From the NCBI RefSeq assembly GCF_014697025.1, contig NZ_JACJRC010000006.1, positions 1 through 64,000 of the forward strand: DNA of 64,000 bases, in the 5' to 3' direction. Shown here in pieces: positions 39,409 to 46,748 of the stretch. The translations under genes were made by a program, and so were the position numbers. Positions within the stretch are counted from its first letter, which is position 1; the number at the start of each line of letters is the position of its first letter. Origin of the DNA: Alkalinema sp. FACHB-956 (GTDB lineage: Bacteria; Cyanobacteriota; Cyanobacteriia; Leptolyngbyales; Leptolyngbyaceae). The notes under the pieces are model-generated. The model was not told the DNA's origin, made no database searches, and saw nothing but the letters and a program-made list of their open reading frames with translations.

Positions 39409-40767
39409 ATGTCTGGAAATCGCTTTCTGCTCTCTTCCGTGGCCTTTGGCATCAGTTTTGGTGTCAGCTTGGTTTTTAGCAAGGGCGATTGGGGTAAAGC
39501 ATTGGGAACGGGGTGTTTGACCTTTTTGGGTAGCCAAGTGGGCGCGATCGTCGCCTCGCGCCAAGCAGAAGATGCGCTGACCTGGCGGATTGATGAACTC
39601 AAAGGCCACATCCGAGCCCTACAACGTAAACGATCGGAAGCCTATATTGACCTACTGGATGTGATTGAAGAACACGATCGCATCATCGCCAACATTAATT
39701 CCCTGCAATCCCAGACCAAGCAGATGAAGGCGCAAAATGCGGTCAGTCATCGATCGAACCAGCCTTTTCCCAGTTGGGATCTCTCAGTCCCCACCCAACG
39801 CCGCACCACCGCAGAAATTCAAGACTTAGACAGCAAGATTAAGGAACTGGAGCAGGAAGAAGCGGCGGTCAATGAATCCTTGACGACTACCCTAGCTGCC
39901 AAGCAACGGGCTGAACTGAGTCTCACCACCACCCAGGCGGAGCTCAAACAAGTTCAACAAAAAGTTGCCGAGCAGCAGAAACACCAAATGCGGCTGCAAC
40001 AAGATATTCAACACCTCCAAACCACGAAGCACCAGTTAGAGCAGGAATTAAGCCAGTTACAAGAACAAGTCGCCACCCTAGAACAGTACCGCAGTGAACT
40101 CGATCGCCTCGTGGCTGCTGCCGAACCCACGCGCCAACAGGTGGAAGCAGGGGCTCAATCTCTTCAGGGGGCGATCGATCAACTGCAACAACAAATCCGC
40201 TCCCTCCATGGGGAACTGGGGCAGTTGGAAGAGCAAATCTTAGAGCGCCGGACGCAGAAGGACGATCTAGATCGGGAACTCACCAGCCTGCGCCAACAGC
40301 AACAACAGTTATCCACTTCAGCCACCGTTCTCCAGGGTGCTAATTCGGCGGCAACCCATCCCTCCTTCGCGACCGCGTGGCAGGGGTCGATCGCTCAGAA
40401 TGGCCATTCGTCAGGTCACTCTGTCCCCACTGATCCATCAGCCCCCATCGACCTCGATCTGAGTCAAGCTGCCCTGAGTCCAGGTTGGATCACCTTCGTT
40501 CATCAGCTGCCCCACTATGAGTTGCAGGCCCTCTGCGCGATCGCCCAGGAAGCCAATCCGGCAGGCACCCTGAAGCAAATCGCAGAATCGAATTTGACGA
40601 TGCCAGAACTGCTGATTGATGCCATCAATGAACAAGCCCTAGAAGCGATCGGGGATCTGATTCTGGAAACCACGTCCGAAACCAACACCCCCATCATTGC
40701 CCAGGAGTATCGCAGCACAGTCGCAAAAGTGGTGCAAGCCTACGAAGCAAGCCAGAAAACCGCTTAG
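39409..40767 (+). CDS. Coiled-coil protein with TerB_C-like C-terminus
   Basis: The N-terminus (residues 5-50) is weakly hydrophobic and may associate with membrane. Residues 55-310 are a very long coiled coil, rich in Gln, Leu and Glu. The last 90 residues form a separate helical domain: LPHYELQALCAIAQEANP, NLTMPELLIDAINEQALEAIGDLILET and a final helix EYRSTVAKVVQAYEA. This tail resembles the C-terminal domain of TerB-type tellurite-response proteins (TerB_C). The assignment is from recall, not a search. TerB_C proteins are known to co-occur with P-loop ATPases of the DUF2791 type, one of which lies 2.3 kb downstream. Confidence 0.6.
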   Translation: MSGNRFLLSSVAFGISFGVSLVFSKGDWGKALGTGCLTFLGSQVGAIVASRQAEDALTWRIDELKGHIRALQRKRSEAYIDLLDVIEEHDRIIANINSLQSQTKQMKAQNAVSHRSNQPFPSWDLSVPTQRRTTAEIQDLDSKIKELEQEEAAVNESLTTTLAAKQRAELSLTTTQAELKQVQQKVAEQQKHQMRLQQDIQHLQTTKHQLEQELSQLQEQVATLEQYRSELDRLVAAAEPTRQQVEAGAQSLQGAIDQLQQQIRSLHGELGQLEEQILERRTQKDDLDRELTSLRQQQQQLSTSATVLQGANSAATHPSFATAWQGSIAQNGHSSGHSVPTDPSAPIDLDLSQAALSPGWITFVHQLPHYELQALCAIAQEANPAGTLKQIAESNLTMPELLIDAINEQALEAIGDLILETTSETNTPIIAQEYRSTVAKVVQAYEASQKTA

Positions 40768-40781
40768 CAACCCGCTTAGCA
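40759..40781 (+). repeat. Tandem duplication across the TerB_C-like gene stop
   Basis: ACCGCTTAGCA (40759-40769), containing the TAG stop, is followed after 1 bp by CCCGCTTAGCA (40771-40781). Confidence 0.8.
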
Positions 40782-40808
40782 GCCCTGCTAATTCTGCCCT
40801 CTGAAATT

Positions 40809-40841
40809 GCTGATAGATTGCCGATAGATTGCTGATAGATT
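40809..40841 (-). repeat. 11-bp tandem repeat reaching the PEP-CTERM gene stop
   Basis: GCTGATAGATT, GCCGATAGATT and GCTGATAGATT lie end to end. The stop codon of the minus-strand gene (complement of 40840-40842) falls at the end of the third unit. Confidence 0.88.
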
Positions 40842-41649
40842 ACCGAGCACGACGGGACACTGTACGCCCTACCAACCAAGCCCCCACTCCTAACAATGCC
40901 AAACCCGCTCCCGATTCTGGAATTTTGCGGGGGGGCTGGGATGCTGTGCCATTAACCCGCAAAACCCAATTGCCAGAACCCGGAGCTAAAGGGGTGGGTT
41001 TGCCATAGTTGTTATTGAGGTTGACTGGATCAAAATTACTTGGCTCATTATCCCCATGGTTGGCAATCACATACCAAGAGCGGTTATCCACTGAATTAAA
41101 TGAATCGACTGTGGCAGGAAGCTGCCCCCGTAGTTGATTGCGGAACAACGCTCCCACAAAGAAATTACTACCCACAGCTAACTGAGTGGGTTGGATATCA
41201 ACCGTGGTGAACGTTAGGGTATCAGGCTGGGTGATGGTGGTTTCTGCCTGGGTCAAAATCTGTGCATCATCAGGCCGTCCATCATTGTTGGGGTCACTAT
41301 AGAGGAAAAGACTGATGGGATAGGGACGAGTCTTCCAGTCGGATAACCCGGTGTAACCCGTCCAGAGCCCCGGAGCCCCCCAGGTCAAGGAGATCGATTT
41401 GAGAAGATCTCCCCCTTGCTGCACCTGATAGGAGTTCATCCACATCCAATCTCCGACAATATTGCCCTTGTAATTTACATTTTCTGGTGTAATGCCGACG
41501 GGATAGAGATCTTCAGGCAATGTATCTCCGTCAATGTCATCAAGTCTATAGGTTACAGCGGCTTGGCTAGTGGGTGCCATGACACATCCCAAGACTCCGA
41601 TCGCTGCTAGTTTCAATACTATTGAAGATAATTTAAACCGCCTTGCCAT
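40840..41649 (-). CDS. PEP-CTERM-type secreted protein
   Basis: A signal peptide (SSIVLKLAAIGVLGCVMAPTS, cleaved near AQA-like SQA) is followed by about 200 residues of beta-rich sequence containing LFLYSDPNNDGRPDDAQ and GNWVLRVNG. The C-terminus has the tripartite sorting signal: IPESG, then the hydrophobic stretch LALLGVGAWLVG, then RTVSRRAR. This is a PES variant of PEP-CTERM, processed by exosortase in cyanobacteria. ATG at 41649 is chosen because GAGGAAAG lies just upstream; the longer frame from 41664 starts with TTG. Its ligand or role is unknown. An exosortase gene is not in the window. Confidence 0.85.
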   Translation of the reverse strand: MARRFKLSSIVLKLAAIGVLGCVMAPTSQAAVTYRLDDIDGDTLPEDLYPVGITPENVNYKGNIVGDWMWMNSYQVQQGGDLLKSISLTWGAPGLWTGYTGLSDWKTRPYPISLFLYSDPNNDGRPDDAQILTQAETTITQPDTLTFTTVDIQPTQLAVGSNFFVGALFRNQLRGQLPATVDSFNSVDNRSWYVIANHGDNEPSNFDPVNLNNNYGKPTPLAPGSGNWVLRVNGTASQPPRKIPESGAGLALLGVGAWLVGRTVSRRAR

Positions 41650-43031
41650 CTTTACTTTCCTCAAACCACTGCAAAACCCTTGTCCCTGTTTGTGTGCAAG
41701 CTTGCGAGGTGAATGGGGATGTCAGTTCAATATCTGACGTTTGATAGATTCGTATCTTCCCCTCAATGCCCTACCCTTATGAGTACCCCAATGCTACGAA
41801 ATATCTCTATACAAAGATTTTTGGAGCCCTGTGGGTGGTAACCAGCCCCAGTCGGTGTAGCCAGTGACTGAAAATTCCCTTTGGGTAAAACTGCACTACG
41901 TTAGAACTGCTTGTATTAGAAGGACGCGGATAGAAGGACGCAATTAGAACTAATCTGCTAGAACAACCCTTGAGTGAACACTCCCCATGGTCGGATCGCT
42001 ATGGCCAAGTCGCTCTCCTTCAGAAGGTTCCCAAAATTGCTTGGGCTAACTGAGCTCTTTGCAGACTTACCGCAGATTTCTACAACTAACGATTCTGACA
42101 GCTAGATTTTTGCACCACAAATATTCACTGATTGCGATCACTCAAGCGGAAACAAGGAACGGCCCTAGACTGTTGTGTCCCTGCGTAAACATCCTTGCCA
42201 GCAACGTACTGAGACGCAGCAGCCAAGATTCAACGATGGCACCCTAAATGGTCTGAACAATGTTCAATTAAGTATTTAAATAACTTTGGGAAAACTTATA
42301 GATGCGTTAACGGTCAACCATCCGAACACCAACGTTAGGCATAACGGACTTTGCCTCACAGTCAGCAATCAGACTCACCGTCAATCACCAACAGGGCAGA
42401 GAGAACCAACAATCAACAGGGGAAATGAACCAAAATCAACATAACGAACCATCCTAAATGCAGAAGTCAGTGATGACTTTTCCTGCAATTGACTGACTCA
42501 TTATTGATCCAGTGTAGTAATACGTATATTTCATATTACGTATATTCGCTTATTCTAATCGTTGCAGGGGAACATCGACATTGCCGATCGTCCCAACTTA
42601 GTCAACCAAGTTAAGGTGATTGAATTGCCCAAAACTCGCAGGAAATCCTAAATTTTCCCTTATTTATCCTCTGAACGATTAGAAAGTTGAATCGCTGCCC
42701 TCCTTCACTATTTAGACCCTCAAGTTAATTCGCTCTTTCTAAGGAATACAAAGTTTTTTCCAGAATTCCGGTGCGATTTGGCTACATTTCGATCGCAATG
42801 TTAATGCGATTTGGCCACATATCAAGATCCATTGATTAGGGCCTCTCCTAAGGGGTCTTACTGATATCTTCTTGCCGATGTCTTCTTACTGATATCTTCC
42901 TGCTGATGTCTTCTTGCCCCCTGCTCAACGAAGAATTTGCCAAATTCTCTGGGGAAAGCCATGCTGAAAGGAAAAAATTTGTGTAGACTGAACCTCTCAG
43001 ATGCCTAACTCCCCCTAGCTTGAGGTGTGCA
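41650..43031. other. 1.4-kb gene-poor region upstream of the BrxD-like gene
   Basis: I find no convincing gene. The region is AT-richer than its surroundings. Features seen: an ACGTATATT pair near 42521-42548; two copies of GCGATTTGG(C/T)(C/T)ACAT near 42772-42825; and the four-unit repeat at 42858-42913. Frames such as 42059-42247 start on TTG and have no family resemblance. It could be a degraded gene or carry an RNA; nothing shows either. Confidence 0.55.
42858..42913 (+). repeat. Four 14-bp tandem units
   Basis: TTACTGATATCTTC, TTGCCGATGTCTTC, TTACTGATATCTTC and CTGCTGATGTCTTC alternate two variants, as though a 28-bp unit had itself been duplicated. Confidence 0.93.
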
Positions 43032-44414
43032 ATGACGCAAACCAAACTCCCAAAACGCATTTCGACGGCCTTAGTCAATGCTTTGGGATCGGGCGTAGTC
43101 CCTCGTCTTGGGGTGGAACACATTGCTGTGGGACGCGATCGGGAGTTGGCCACCCTCAGCCATGACCTCAGCAACATCGAGGCTGGTGGGGCTAGTTTTC
43201 GTTTTGTAATTGGGCGGTACGGCGCGGGTAAAAGCTTTTTGCTGCAATTGCTGCGATCGCAAGCCCTGGAACAAGGGTTTGTGGTTGCCGATGCGGACAT
43301 TACCCCTGAACGGCGGTTGGCCGGGGCAGGGGGCGCGAGTCTGGCCACCTACCGCGAATTACTACACCACCTCTCTACCAAAAGTCGTCCCGATGGGGGC
43401 GCGCTGCAAACCATCCTAGAACGCTGGATTGCGGCGATTCAAACCCAGGTAGCGCAGGACAGCGGCAAGCGACCCAATGATGAAGGGTTTGACAGTGAGG
43501 TGGAGGCCAAGATCCGAGAGGTGACTCAGGATGTGGCGGATTTGGTGAATGGCTTTGAGTTTGCCAACGTCATCATTGCCTATTGGACGGGCTATCGCAG
43601 CGATAACGAAGCGCAGAAAGAAGCGGCCTTACGCTGGTTACGGGGGGAATTTGCCACGAAAACCGAGGCGAAATCCGCCTTGGGGGTGCGGGTGATCGTC
43701 GATGATGAAACTTGGTATGACTACATTAAGCTGTTAGCAAAATTTGTAGCGGACATTGGCTATAAAGGTTTAATTGTTCTGTTGGATGAGGCGATCCACC
43801 TAACAAAAATTACGACGACCGTTACCCGCCAGAATAACTACGATAAGTTGCTGGCCATGTTTAATGACACGATGCAGGGGCGAGTGAGCTATCTGGGAAT
43901 TATTGTCGGGGGGACACCGCAGTTTCTTGAAGATCCGCGCCGGGGACTGTATAGCGATCCCGCTTGGCAGCGACGTACTAGTCAGAATCGCTTACTGAGC
44001 CAGTCGGGCTTAACAGACGCGATCGCCCCTGTGGTGCGGCTAGAACCCTTGAGCCATGGGCAATTGCTAGAACTCTTACAGCGCTTAGCAGAAATCCATC
44101 GATCGCACTACGACTATGCCAAACCGGTTGCACCTAAGGATTTACAACAAATTTTGCAAACGATGACCGATCGGCTGGGGGCGGAGGCATTGCTGACCCC
44201 AGGGGAACTCGTACGCGATGTGATCGGCGTGTTAAACGTGCTGCACCAGAATCCCAACCTCTCGGTGAGTCAGCTGTTGCAAACCACTAGGAATCAACCC
44301 GAACGGAATGCAGCAGCCCCAACCGAGGCTGAGCCGAACTCATCGAAACCAAACTCATCGAAACCGATGGGCACGCCCATGGTTACCCCAGAATTTGCAG
44401 AGTTCACCCTGTAA
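43032..44414 (+). CDS. BrxD-like ATP-binding protein (BREX ATPase, DUF2791 type)
   Basis: The 460-aa protein matches the BrxD/DUF2791 ATPase family across its length. It begins with the family's KRISTALVNALGSGVVPR segment. Walker A is GRYGAGKSF (residues 61-69), the DADITPERRLAG and GVRVIVDDETWYDYIKLLA motifs follow, and Walker B is LIVLLDEA (247-254). The FNDTMQGR and GGTPQFLEDPRRGLYSD segments are diagnostic. BrxD is part of some BREX antiphage systems, and homologues accompany TerB_C proteins and SF2 helicases. None of the BREX core genes (methyltransferase, PglZ, BrxC) is visible here. The C-terminal tail contains a 15-bp repeat (NSSKP units). ATG at 43032 follows GAGGT. Confidence 0.85.
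   Translation: MTQTKLPKRISTALVNALGSGVVPRLGVEHIAVGRDRELATLSHDLSNIEAGGASFRFVIGRYGAGKSFLLQLLRSQALEQGFVVADADITPERRLAGAGGASLATYRELLHHLSTKSRPDGGALQTILERWIAAIQTQVAQDSGKRPNDEGFDSEVEAKIREVTQDVADLVNGFEFANVIIAYWTGYRSDNEAQKEAALRWLRGEFATKTEAKSALGVRVIVDDETWYDYIKLLAKFVADIGYKGLIVLLDEAIHLTKITTTVTRQNNYDKLLAMFNDTMQGRVSYLGIIVGGTPQFLEDPRRGLYSDPAWQRRTSQNRLLSQSGLTDAIAPVVRLEPLSHGQLLELLQRLAEIHRSHYDYAKPVAPKDLQQILQTMTDRLGAEALLTPGELVRDVIGVLNVLHQNPNLSVSQLLQTTRNQPERNAAAPTEAEPNSSKPNSSKPMGTPMVTPEFAEFTL
44336..44365 (+). repeat. 15-bp in-frame duplication in the BrxD-like tail
   Basis: GAACTCATCGAAACC and AAACTCATCGAAACC lie end to end and code for NSSKP-NSSKP. Confidence 0.9.
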
Positions 44415-44426
44415 CCCCCCTTCCTA

Positions 44427-46748
44427 TTACAGGGAAGCTCGGGGCGATCGCCCCAGCAATTGATCCACCCAACTAACGCGCCGGGGGGCTGGGATATCAC
44501 TAAACATCTGTCGAGCTTGTTGATAGAATCCCTCCGCTTGTTCCCAATTCCCCATTTGCTGGAAGGTGAGGGCCAATTGGGCATAGGCTTTGGCGAGGTC
44601 ACATTTTGCGCCGATCGCTTGCAATAGACTAATGGCTTTGAGATGGTGCTCCCATGCGAGGGTTAAGTTGCCTTGCATCCGATAAATCTGGGCGAGGCCA
44701 TGAAATCCCTTCGCTCGAATTTGAGTAAATTCCTGCTCCTCCGCATAACGAATTGTTTGCTGATAGGCTTGCAGGGCCCGATCGTACTCCCCCAAATGGC
44801 GGTAGGTATGGGCTAAAAAGAGCCAACTGTAGCCCCGTCCCATCATCGAAGCGGAACGATCGGGGGCGGTCAAGTTGATCGTCTGGAGTTGCGATCGGGC
44901 GGCCTCCGGTTGATTTTGGCAGGCATAGAGATAGGCTAAGCAACAGGCAGAATAGAGCCGATATCCTTCTGATTGCAGTTGTCCGGCCAGTTGGTAAGTC
45001 TGCCGGAATAACATAAGAGCCGTTTCAATGTGCCATAACTCCATCAAACACAGTCCTAGATTCAACAGTGAAGAGAGTTTTAAATCTTCACTACGGTTAT
45101 GTTTGGCGATGTAATGGGCGCGTTGATGAATTTCGATCGCATTGGTTAAGTCGCCAGCGATTCGATAAATGTAACCACACAGATTCAACAACAGACCCAA
45201 CCGCGTGTCATTCAGCAGGTGGGGGGCGATTCGATGAATCGCTTCAGTAATCTTTTGGACTTCACCAAAGCGATAGAACAGCCAACCTAATTGGAGTTCT
45301 TTACCCCAACGGCTAGGACGCAGGGTAATTAATACATCACAGGCTTTATCGTAATCGCTAACTTCTAAGTAATGATAATAAGCTTCGAGGATTTGCAGCG
45401 CATCTTCTACCCGATCGACATGGACAATAGAATTCAACCAAAATTCAGCTAATTTACGGTGGGTCATTTCCCAACCGGGGCGATCGTCCCGGAGCCGACT
45501 GCGGGCCTCCATCCGCATCATGGGGTGGAGCCAAAATTTGCCATTATCCCGACATTCCAAAAGCGAGCGATCGCGAAGACATTGCAAAATGGCAGGATGA
45601 CGCTGGAGGTTAGCCACATCCCATAGCAAACACTCCACTCCTTTGCGCGGAACATGGGAAATTTCCTGGTAACGATAGGCTCCCAAGCGGCAAAGTAACC
45701 GATAAGCTTCCGGAGCAATGCGGTATAAATCATCAAAATGGCGAGCCACTAGGTGCTGAAGTTCGCCACTGTGCAACAACCCCCGATTGCCATCCTGCCA
45801 AGCTTCTTCAACATCGCCCCCCAAATCCTGCTGGATCTTTGTGGCTAGGATGCGCATGGCCAAAGCATTCCCATCCCAAGTGCGCCACATTTCGACCAGG
45901 GCAGGGGTTGTGTGGGAAAGCTGCGATCGTTGAAAGTAATCCTGCCAAGCCGCCAAGGGCAACCCATCCAGGGCCAAGGCTTCAACGTCCAAGCGTTCTT
46001 CATGGAGGCGCGTCCGACTGACTAAAAACGTCACGGCATTCACCTGCGGATCGGACAGCATTTCCAACAATTGCACATAGTCCCGACAGTCCGGCACAAA
46101 GCGCGAGTCCCCATCCAAAGCCGTATCTAAATCGTCAATCAGAATACCGACAAACTGCTGGGGATCGCTTAGCCTATGCCGCAGTTGCATCAAGTTCAGC
46201 ATAAAGTCCCGCCCTGCTCTGTCCCCAAAGGTTTTGCTAAGCCAGTCCCCCACTAAACTTTTAGCGTTGGTTAAATGTTCCGGATCGGTGCCCATTTGAA
46301 AGATTAGGGTTTTAGCGAACGATCGTCGCTCCAGGTATTTCCGCACCAAACGCGTTTTGCCCAATCCGCCTTCCCCATGGATCAAAATGATTTTAGTCCC
46401 GCGATCGATGAGAGCATCCAGTTGGGTAAATTCGGGATCACGGGGAATCCAAAGGGTATCCGTTCGACAGGAATTACCGTTCCCCACACAGTACTGATGG
46501 GCATAATGGCCCAGCACCGCGCGAAAGTTTCTTTTGTTCACGGGTTGGCCTAACGTTTGCCCCAAAATTCGAAATAGCTTGGAGCCTTCTTCGCGAATGT
46601 GACTGGGACTGTACCCTAAATTCATCTCTTCGTAGGTACAATTTTCCCAAGCACAACGAAAAATATCTTGGTGTAAATTGCTCAAGGGTTCGCCGGTGGC
46701 TTGATGAAATAGCTCATTCATCAGCCTTAGCGCTTCATCACACTCCAT
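44427..46748 (-). CDS. STAND-type NTPase with C-terminal TPRs
   Basis: The 773-aa protein has three parts. Residues 1-90 are a helical N-terminal domain (EALRLMNELFHQATGEPLSN, then FRCAWENCTYEEMN) like the HTH-type domain found ahead of NTPases in cyanobacterial vWA-MoxR-associated proteins. Residues 100-400 are an NB-ARC/STAND ATPase with Walker A GEGGLGKT (125-132), Walker B ILIDDLD (202-208) and a winged-helix region. Residues 480-760 are a run of TPR-like helical pairs. STAND proteins of this plan sense a ligand with the repeats and signal by oligomerising; several are antiphage defences. It converges on the BrxD-like gene with 12 bp between stops. No catalytic effector domain is seen. 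Confidence 0.82.
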   Translation of the reverse strand: MECDEALRLMNELFHQATGEPLSNLHQDIFRCAWENCTYEEMNLGYSPSHIREEGSKLFRILGQTLGQPVNKRNFRAVLGHYAHQYCVGNGNSCRTDTLWIPRDPEFTQLDALIDRGTKIILIHGEGGLGKTRLVRKYLERRSFAKTLIFQMGTDPEHLTNAKSLVGDWLSKTFGDRAGRDFMLNLMQLRHRLSDPQQFVGILIDDLDTALDGDSRFVPDCRDYVQLLEMLSDPQVNAVTFLVSRTRLHEERLDVEALALDGLPLAAWQDYFQRSQLSHTTPALVEMWRTWDGNALAMRILATKIQQDLGGDVEEAWQDGNRGLLHSGELQHLVARHFDDLYRIAPEAYRLLCRLGAYRYQEISHVPRKGVECLLWDVANLQRHPAILQCLRDRSLLECRDNGKFWLHPMMRMEARSRLRDDRPGWEMTHRKLAEFWLNSIVHVDRVEDALQILEAYYHYLEVSDYDKACDVLITLRPSRWGKELQLGWLFYRFGEVQKITEAIHRIAPHLLNDTRLGLLLNLCGYIYRIAGDLTNAIEIHQRAHYIAKHNRSEDLKLSSLLNLGLCLMELWHIETALMLFRQTYQLAGQLQSEGYRLYSACCLAYLYACQNQPEAARSQLQTINLTAPDRSASMMGRGYSWLFLAHTYRHLGEYDRALQAYQQTIRYAEEQEFTQIRAKGFHGLAQIYRMQGNLTLAWEHHLKAISLLQAIGAKCDLAKAYAQLALTFQQMGNWEQAEGFYQQARQMFSDIPAPRRVSWVDQLLGRSPRASL

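Follow-up and report, generated by a model that had tools for sequence, protein, structure and literature searches.

The question raised by positions 39,409 to 44,414 of the window (here, the whole stretch analysed, i.e. the first 64,000 nucleotides of contig NZ_JACJRC010000006.1 of the cyanobacterium Alkalinema sp. FACHB-956) is whether two genes that are not adjacent belong to one system and, if so, to which one. The first, open reading frame A (ORF A), encodes a TerB_C coiled-coil protein and the second, ORF B, a DUF2791/BrxD-like ATPase; they lie 2.3 kb apart, with a PEP-CTERM gene and a gene-poor region between them, exactly as an initial annotation of this DNA had placed them. Our preferred reading, to which we give a probability of roughly 0.6, is that the pair represents two thirds of a chromosomal, vertically inherited and domesticated offshoot of the Shango system, in which SepT (ORF A) would tether the ATPase SngB (ORF B) and the helicase SngC to the membrane and the septum. 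The identity of the parts is well supported and the tethering partly supported. The features concerned are the following.

39409..40767, + strand: ORF A, SepT-type protein (452 aa), assigned from PF15615, the C-terminal part of PADLOC SngA, the hairpin motif, an AlphaFold model and the architecture of SepT (All2460)
40450..40764, + strand: TerB_C head of ORF A, with the conserved stretch K.I.E..(I/L)TMP.LLID.IN..A...G and a weakly predicted winged-helix-like fold
40840..41664, - strand: gene for a PEP-CTERM-type secreted protein, lying between A and B, cluster c8 in the loci of five relatives
41665..43031, no strand: gene-poor stretch from the PEP-CTERM gene to SngB, matching no Rfam family
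43032..44414, + strand: ORF B, SngB-type ATPase (460 aa), assigned from PADLOC SngB, PF10923 and invariant columns

Shango consists of a TerB-like protein, an ATPase and a DEAD/DEAH helicase and acts against phages in Pseudomonas aeruginosa (PMC10250203). ORF B matches PADLOC SngB and ORF A the C-terminal part of SngA; therefore, the set that the initial annotation had named, i.e. a TerB_C protein, a DUF2791 ATPase and a superfamily 2 (SF2) helicase, is the system since named Shango. ORF B is indeed a DUF2791/BrxD-like ATPase (PF10923, BrxC_BrxD, 534.6 bits), best assigned as SngB: the PADLOC SngB model aligns with it over positions 3-424 of 439 (E 1e-169) and scores 563 bits against 192 bits for the BrxD model, while the score with the BrxD equivalog model (197.7 bits) lies under the cut-off of 350. 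Its Walker A (GRYGAGKS) and Walker B (LIVLLDEA) motifs are intact, and the key residues are invariant among relatives. Its start is more likely the ATG at 43032, which has GAGGTG just upstream, than the TTG at 43020. An AlphaFold model of SngB computed from 20 sequences had a mean predicted local distance difference test score (pLDDT) of 53 and was not used.

The C-terminus of ORF A matches PF15615 (TerB_C) with 33.0 bits, above the curated Pfam cut-off of 26.3, so that the TerB_C-like C-terminus first proposed stands. In a genome-wide profile search, ORF A is the sole TerB_C gene of the 6.16 Mb genome (38.3 bits, E 5.6e-9). The PADLOC SngA model matches it only in its C-terminal part (positions 311-526 of 528, E 3.8e-13), and a domain search of ORF A recovered TerB_C only, not the TerB_N and TerB domains of SngA, whereas a canonical cyanobacterial SngA (L181; L, G and C numbers are our handles for loci, genomes and contigs) carries all three above cut-off. 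Compared with Shango, these two domains are replaced by a membrane hairpin and a coiled coil. The N-terminus, which the initial annotation described as hydrophobic and possibly membrane-tied, is indeed hydrophobic and is predicted to form a membrane hairpin of two helices (about residues 2-50, with helices modelled at 2-23 and from residue 28) that is kept in nearly all homologues, typically with the motif NRxxLGxxAFxVSFGxSL. The AlphaFold model (28 homologues; mean pLDDT 81, predicted template modelling score 0.30) shows helices at 28-116 and 133-305, a disordered linker at about 306-350 and a compact head at 351-452; the coiled coil announced as giant is thus long but not giant. A-type proteins, including those encoded in operons, have the hairpin and the coiled coil ahead of TerB_C. 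The modelled head may weakly resemble a winged helix: winged-helix regulators top its fold search (best Z 7.7), a Foldseek search of ORF A gave no match with E below 0.001, and a sequence search against solved structures gave no convincing match for SngB or the TerB_C head.

The initial annotation supposed that the helicase was lacking, or that it might lie just outside the window. Neither is the case, as the same genome carries a single full-length SngC (800 bits, covering positions 7-716 of 720 in the model; the next-best helicase reaches 98 bits) on a different contig from A and B, at G000:C8:80151-82313. As the window starts at the end of contig C6, SngC would lie at least about 119 kb from the pair even in the most favourable end-to-end arrangement of the two contigs. 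SngC is flanked by genes whose translations read as rpsB-tsf and atpC-atpD, resembles Lhr-type helicases and is related to BrxHI. Of the description as a reduced or split version, 'split' therefore holds and 'reduced' does not, since the three genes are kept together in each genome though scattered. The module is a complete, scattered and vertically kept one, not a reduced Shango.

Gene order was compared in 80 named cyanobacterial loci (e.g. from Nostoc, Anabaena, Leptolyngbya, Phormidesmis and Myxacorys). A lies upstream of SngB on the same strand in 56 of them, with a median gap of 96 bp, so the homologues of the two proteins are linked in other genomes, their being unlinked having been named at the outset as what would speak against the association. 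In 19 of the 80 loci, C comes next in the same orientation, the order A-B-C is found in 10, and some Nostocaceae (L161-L165) have a tight A-B-C operon, as in Shango; ORF A therefore holds the place of SngA. Within the window's own family, A, the PEP-CTERM gene, B, a secreted protein and C all lie within about 9 kb in one locus (L049), and other genomes have A-B or B-C linked, or all three apart. In the SngB tree, the A-partnered proteins form one clade apart from canonical Shango (support 97/96), in which the scattered forms constitute a nested clade (99/96), and scattering therefore looks derived from the operon. The canonical cyanobacterial Shango SngBs group with proteobacterial ones; as the tree is rooted at midpoint and leaves some near-base forks open, it places the A-partnered clade only roughly relative to canonical Shango (e.g. 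Paenibacillus L231). Furthermore, in 30 genomes, pairwise distances of SngB (r 0.883) and SngC (r 0.904) track those of RpoB, none of 2000 permutations being as high, and those of the A C-terminus do so with r 0.78 (28 genomes). The tracking by SngB and SngC indicates vertical rather than mobile inheritance.

Co-occurrence was examined in 58 relatives and then in 213 genomes across the class. The SngBs fall into two groups, one scoring at least 575 bits (59-74% identity to ORF B) and the other at most 342 bits (mostly about 42%). The high-scoring clade is present in 31 of the 213 genomes, and a close SngC and a coiled-coil TerB_C protein accompany it in 31/31. SngB never occurs without A, while A occurs without SngB in seven genomes (five of the window's family and two Nostocaceae); of these seven, G017 has retained SngC. 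According to a rough calculation that ignores relatedness, the three gene sets coincide at the family level, in seven families out of 38 or more. In the window's family, 24 genomes have both B and C, 8 have neither and 3 are mixed (Fisher P 1.6e-5, relatedness ignored), and TerB_C scores are 22-36.5 bits without SngB and 36.4-56 with it, a difference that relatedness confounds. Some genomes with the A-type set also hold a canonical Shango, with a TerB_N-TerB-TerB_C SngA and a SngB of about 40% identity.

What ORF A may do is suggested by SepT (All2460) of Anabaena PCC 7120, and this link to a protein with an experimentally studied septal role goes beyond the initial annotation. SepT has two membrane helices (residues 12-50), followed by coiled coils and a TerB-C domain (PMC10653889) and is 426 aa long (PMC12421839). 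ORF A shares this architecture, with two N-terminal membrane helices, coiled coils, a C-terminal TerB_C and a similar length (452 aa), and the A proteins of Nostocaceae loci measure about 420-450 aa. The septal localisation of SepT depends on its membrane part; it interacts with MreB, RodA, FtsW, SepF, ZipN and SepJ, and its mutants are altered in cell size, peptidoglycan incorporation and nanopores (PMC10653889). The same study describes all2461-all2460-all2459 as a synteny block, the gene on either side of SepT encoding a P-loop NTPase, and reports that the product of the downstream one, All2459, co-precipitates with SepT (PMC10653889). A P-loop NTPase gene, that of SngB, likewise lies downstream of ORF A in the same orientation, with one gene in between. 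In Nostocaceae loci, a DUF815 ATPase (also P-loop), A and SngB follow each other in this order on one strand; all2459 should therefore be SngB and all2461 the DUF815 gene. In 44/80 loci (e.g. L287:7120-8475), the SepT-SngB pair is immediately preceded by a DUF815 AAA-type ATPase gene in the same orientation, which is a possible further partner. ORF A and the Nostocaceae A proteins have the hairpin motif in common and are 25-31% identical. The SepT study mentions neither Shango nor a helicase (PMC10653889), did not link the neighbour to Shango SngB and did not cover the window's lineage; our literature search found no paper on a SepT-type form of Shango in cyanobacteria.

In the mechanism that we propose, the hairpin would anchor ORF A in the cytoplasmic membrane, and the coiled coil would dimerise and reach across tens of nanometres. 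The TerB_C head, the sole part in common with SngA, would dock SngB and, via SngB, the SngC helicase. The module might thus keep at the membrane and septum, where proteins of the divisome and elongasome are also bound by SepT, an ATPase-helicase pair that acts on DNA, e.g. to process chromosomal DNA at division or to protect the septum from DNA coming in. In filamentous cyanobacteria, an ATPase and a helicase of the defence type would then appear to be coupled to the machineries of cell division and of cell junctions. A further step, which we regard as tentative and somewhat doubtful, is that SepT-SngB-SngC is a Shango-type immune machine that was domesticated by filamentous cyanobacteria and moved to the septum between cells, where its membrane-anchored TerB_C protein couples the helicase-ATPase to the divisome and intercellular channels, so as to clear DNA during division or to block the passage of foreign DNA along the filament.

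Several points weigh against the domesticated, SepT-tethered module. The participation of SngC in the SepT-SngB complex is presumptive, and so is any action of the three proteins on DNA at the septum. All2459 is putatively SngB on the basis of synteny in Nostocaceae relatives rather than in PCC 7120 itself, and co-immunoprecipitation of a membrane protein can pull down bystanders. The 25-31% identity of ORF A, which was measured to these relatives and not to All2460, is near the threshold of 30% global identity used in the SepT study, so a SepT role in the window's lineage would be a transfer by homology; moreover, that study suspects functional divergence outside heterocyst formers (PMC10653889). 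Lastly, A persists without SngB/SngC in some genomes, so that SepT may also serve a separate function.

The most serious competitor, although unlikely, is a working anti-phage variant of Shango whose TerB_C protein senses infection at the membrane and whose SngB-SngC work on phage DNA, as might be supposed for canonical Shango; SepT would then owe its septal role to a side effect of its coiled coil. The full-length matches of SngB and SngC to the Shango models, the intact catalytic motifs of SngB, the patchy spread across cyanobacteria and the activity of Shango against phages in P. aeruginosa (PMC10250203) would all fit. However, the loci are scattered and vertically inherited, some relatives hold a canonical Shango copy besides, ORF A has neither TerB_N nor TerB, and the published phenotype of SepT concerns the cell wall and septum. 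Somewhat less probable still is that ORF A serves purely as a cytoskeletal scaffold and that SngB-SngC work separately, in DNA repair or on other nucleic acids, operon and co-occurrence having been inherited without a shared complex. The seven genomes with A and no SngB, the resemblance of SngC to Lhr-type helicases and the drifting apart of the genes in the window's family point in this direction, but SngB always comes with A, B and C are lost jointly, co-occurrence outlasts repeated loss of linkage and All2459 co-precipitates with SepT (PMC10653889).

Two other explanations are very improbable. That ORF B is BrxD, and the locus part of a bacteriophage exclusion (BREX) system, is suggested by the name of PF10923, which refers to BrxC/BrxD, by the match of ORF B to the BrxD model and by the homologous ATPase and helicase pair of BREX (BrxD, BrxHI). 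The third partner is, however, different, ORF B fits the SngB model far better and falls under the BrxD equivalog cut-off, and a search of the window's genome for PglZ (PF08665) gave no match; BREX membership is therefore rejected, the lack of PglZ refuting it for this genome. A chance neighbourhood of two unrelated genes, to which the 2.3 kb gap, the intervening gene and the many members of the window's family with A and B unlinked might lead, is refuted by both counts, i.e. the 56/80 loci with A and B linked in one order and on one strand and the co-occurrence in 31/31 genomes.

The proposed domesticated offshoot shares with Shango a full-length SngB and SngC and the TerB_C domain of SngA, but differs from it in its own SngB clade, in the absence of a single operon in the window's genome (A and B are separated by a gene, and C is on another contig) and in a vertical, chromosomal inheritance instead of the mobile or defence-island one that is usual for, although not strictly defining of, Shango. 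This reading joins two separate literatures, one on a poorly understood phage-defence system and one on a protein without which the septal nanopores of a model multicellular bacterium are not normal. If it is true, the unnamed NTPase partner of SepT is SngB, a third partner, SngC, is predicted, and Shango gains a lineage whose TerB_C protein is already localised and knocked out, which makes the architecture accessible in a laboratory strain. Shango finders that demand a classic SngA and linkage will miss the SepT-type form and, conversely, a single SngB or SngC match in a cyanobacterium needs additional evidence before it is taken as phage defence.

Canonical Shango, too, can have its helicase apart from the other two genes. 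Indeed, SngA and SngB are adjacent and SngC is elsewhere in L182/L183 (G096), L194/L195 (G191), L192/L193 (G106) and L190/L191 (G109), the SngC of one of them lying on the same contig at a distance of 124 kb. At L091:6290-9735 (G032:C30), there is a second SngB/SngC-like pair, which is very divergent (26% and 30% identity) and is preceded by a large gene on the same strand; its SngB groups with BrxD in the tree. SngB homologues also occur on 692 plasmid records, of which 449 are from Klebsiella; for one plasmid locus (L315), the gene table, which is incomplete, lists no SngA upstream of SngB. No SngB was found in phage records, and PHROG gave no match.

In one genus (three genomes, family f25), a WD40 propeller is fused to an A-type protein adjoining SngB, and these genomes carry a second, unfused A copy elsewhere.

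L173:3248-6055, L175:10318-13047 and L177:8036-10807: fusions of hairpin, coiled coil, TerB_C and WD40 directly upstream of SngB (domains tested for L173)

Three neighbouring genes were rejected as parts of the module. A stand-alone TerB protein (169 aa; PF05099, 25.4 bits, just above cut-off), encoded divergently from sngC at L042:7540-8049 (G000:C8), could have been the missing TerB part of SngA; it is discarded because it lies next to sngC nowhere but in the window's genome and in three relatives and because it is widespread in cyanobacteria without SngB or SngC. The PEP-CTERM gene, also found between A and B in L049, L072, L077, L080 and L084, and the c6 secreted protein co-travel in the window's family by synteny and are excluded because the A-B gap of Nostocaceae is too short for them. 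The 1.37 kb gene-poor stretch (41665-43031) contains no convincing gene and no RNA matched by Rfam. Convergent with SngB, the window encodes an AAA/STAND-like ATPase with TPR repeats (44427-46748, - strand), which is not beside SngB in relatives. At the other end of the window, an IsrR antisense RNA (1072-1258, - strand; 171 bits) lies within a photosystem II CP43-like gene (583-2043, + strand), presumably isiA.

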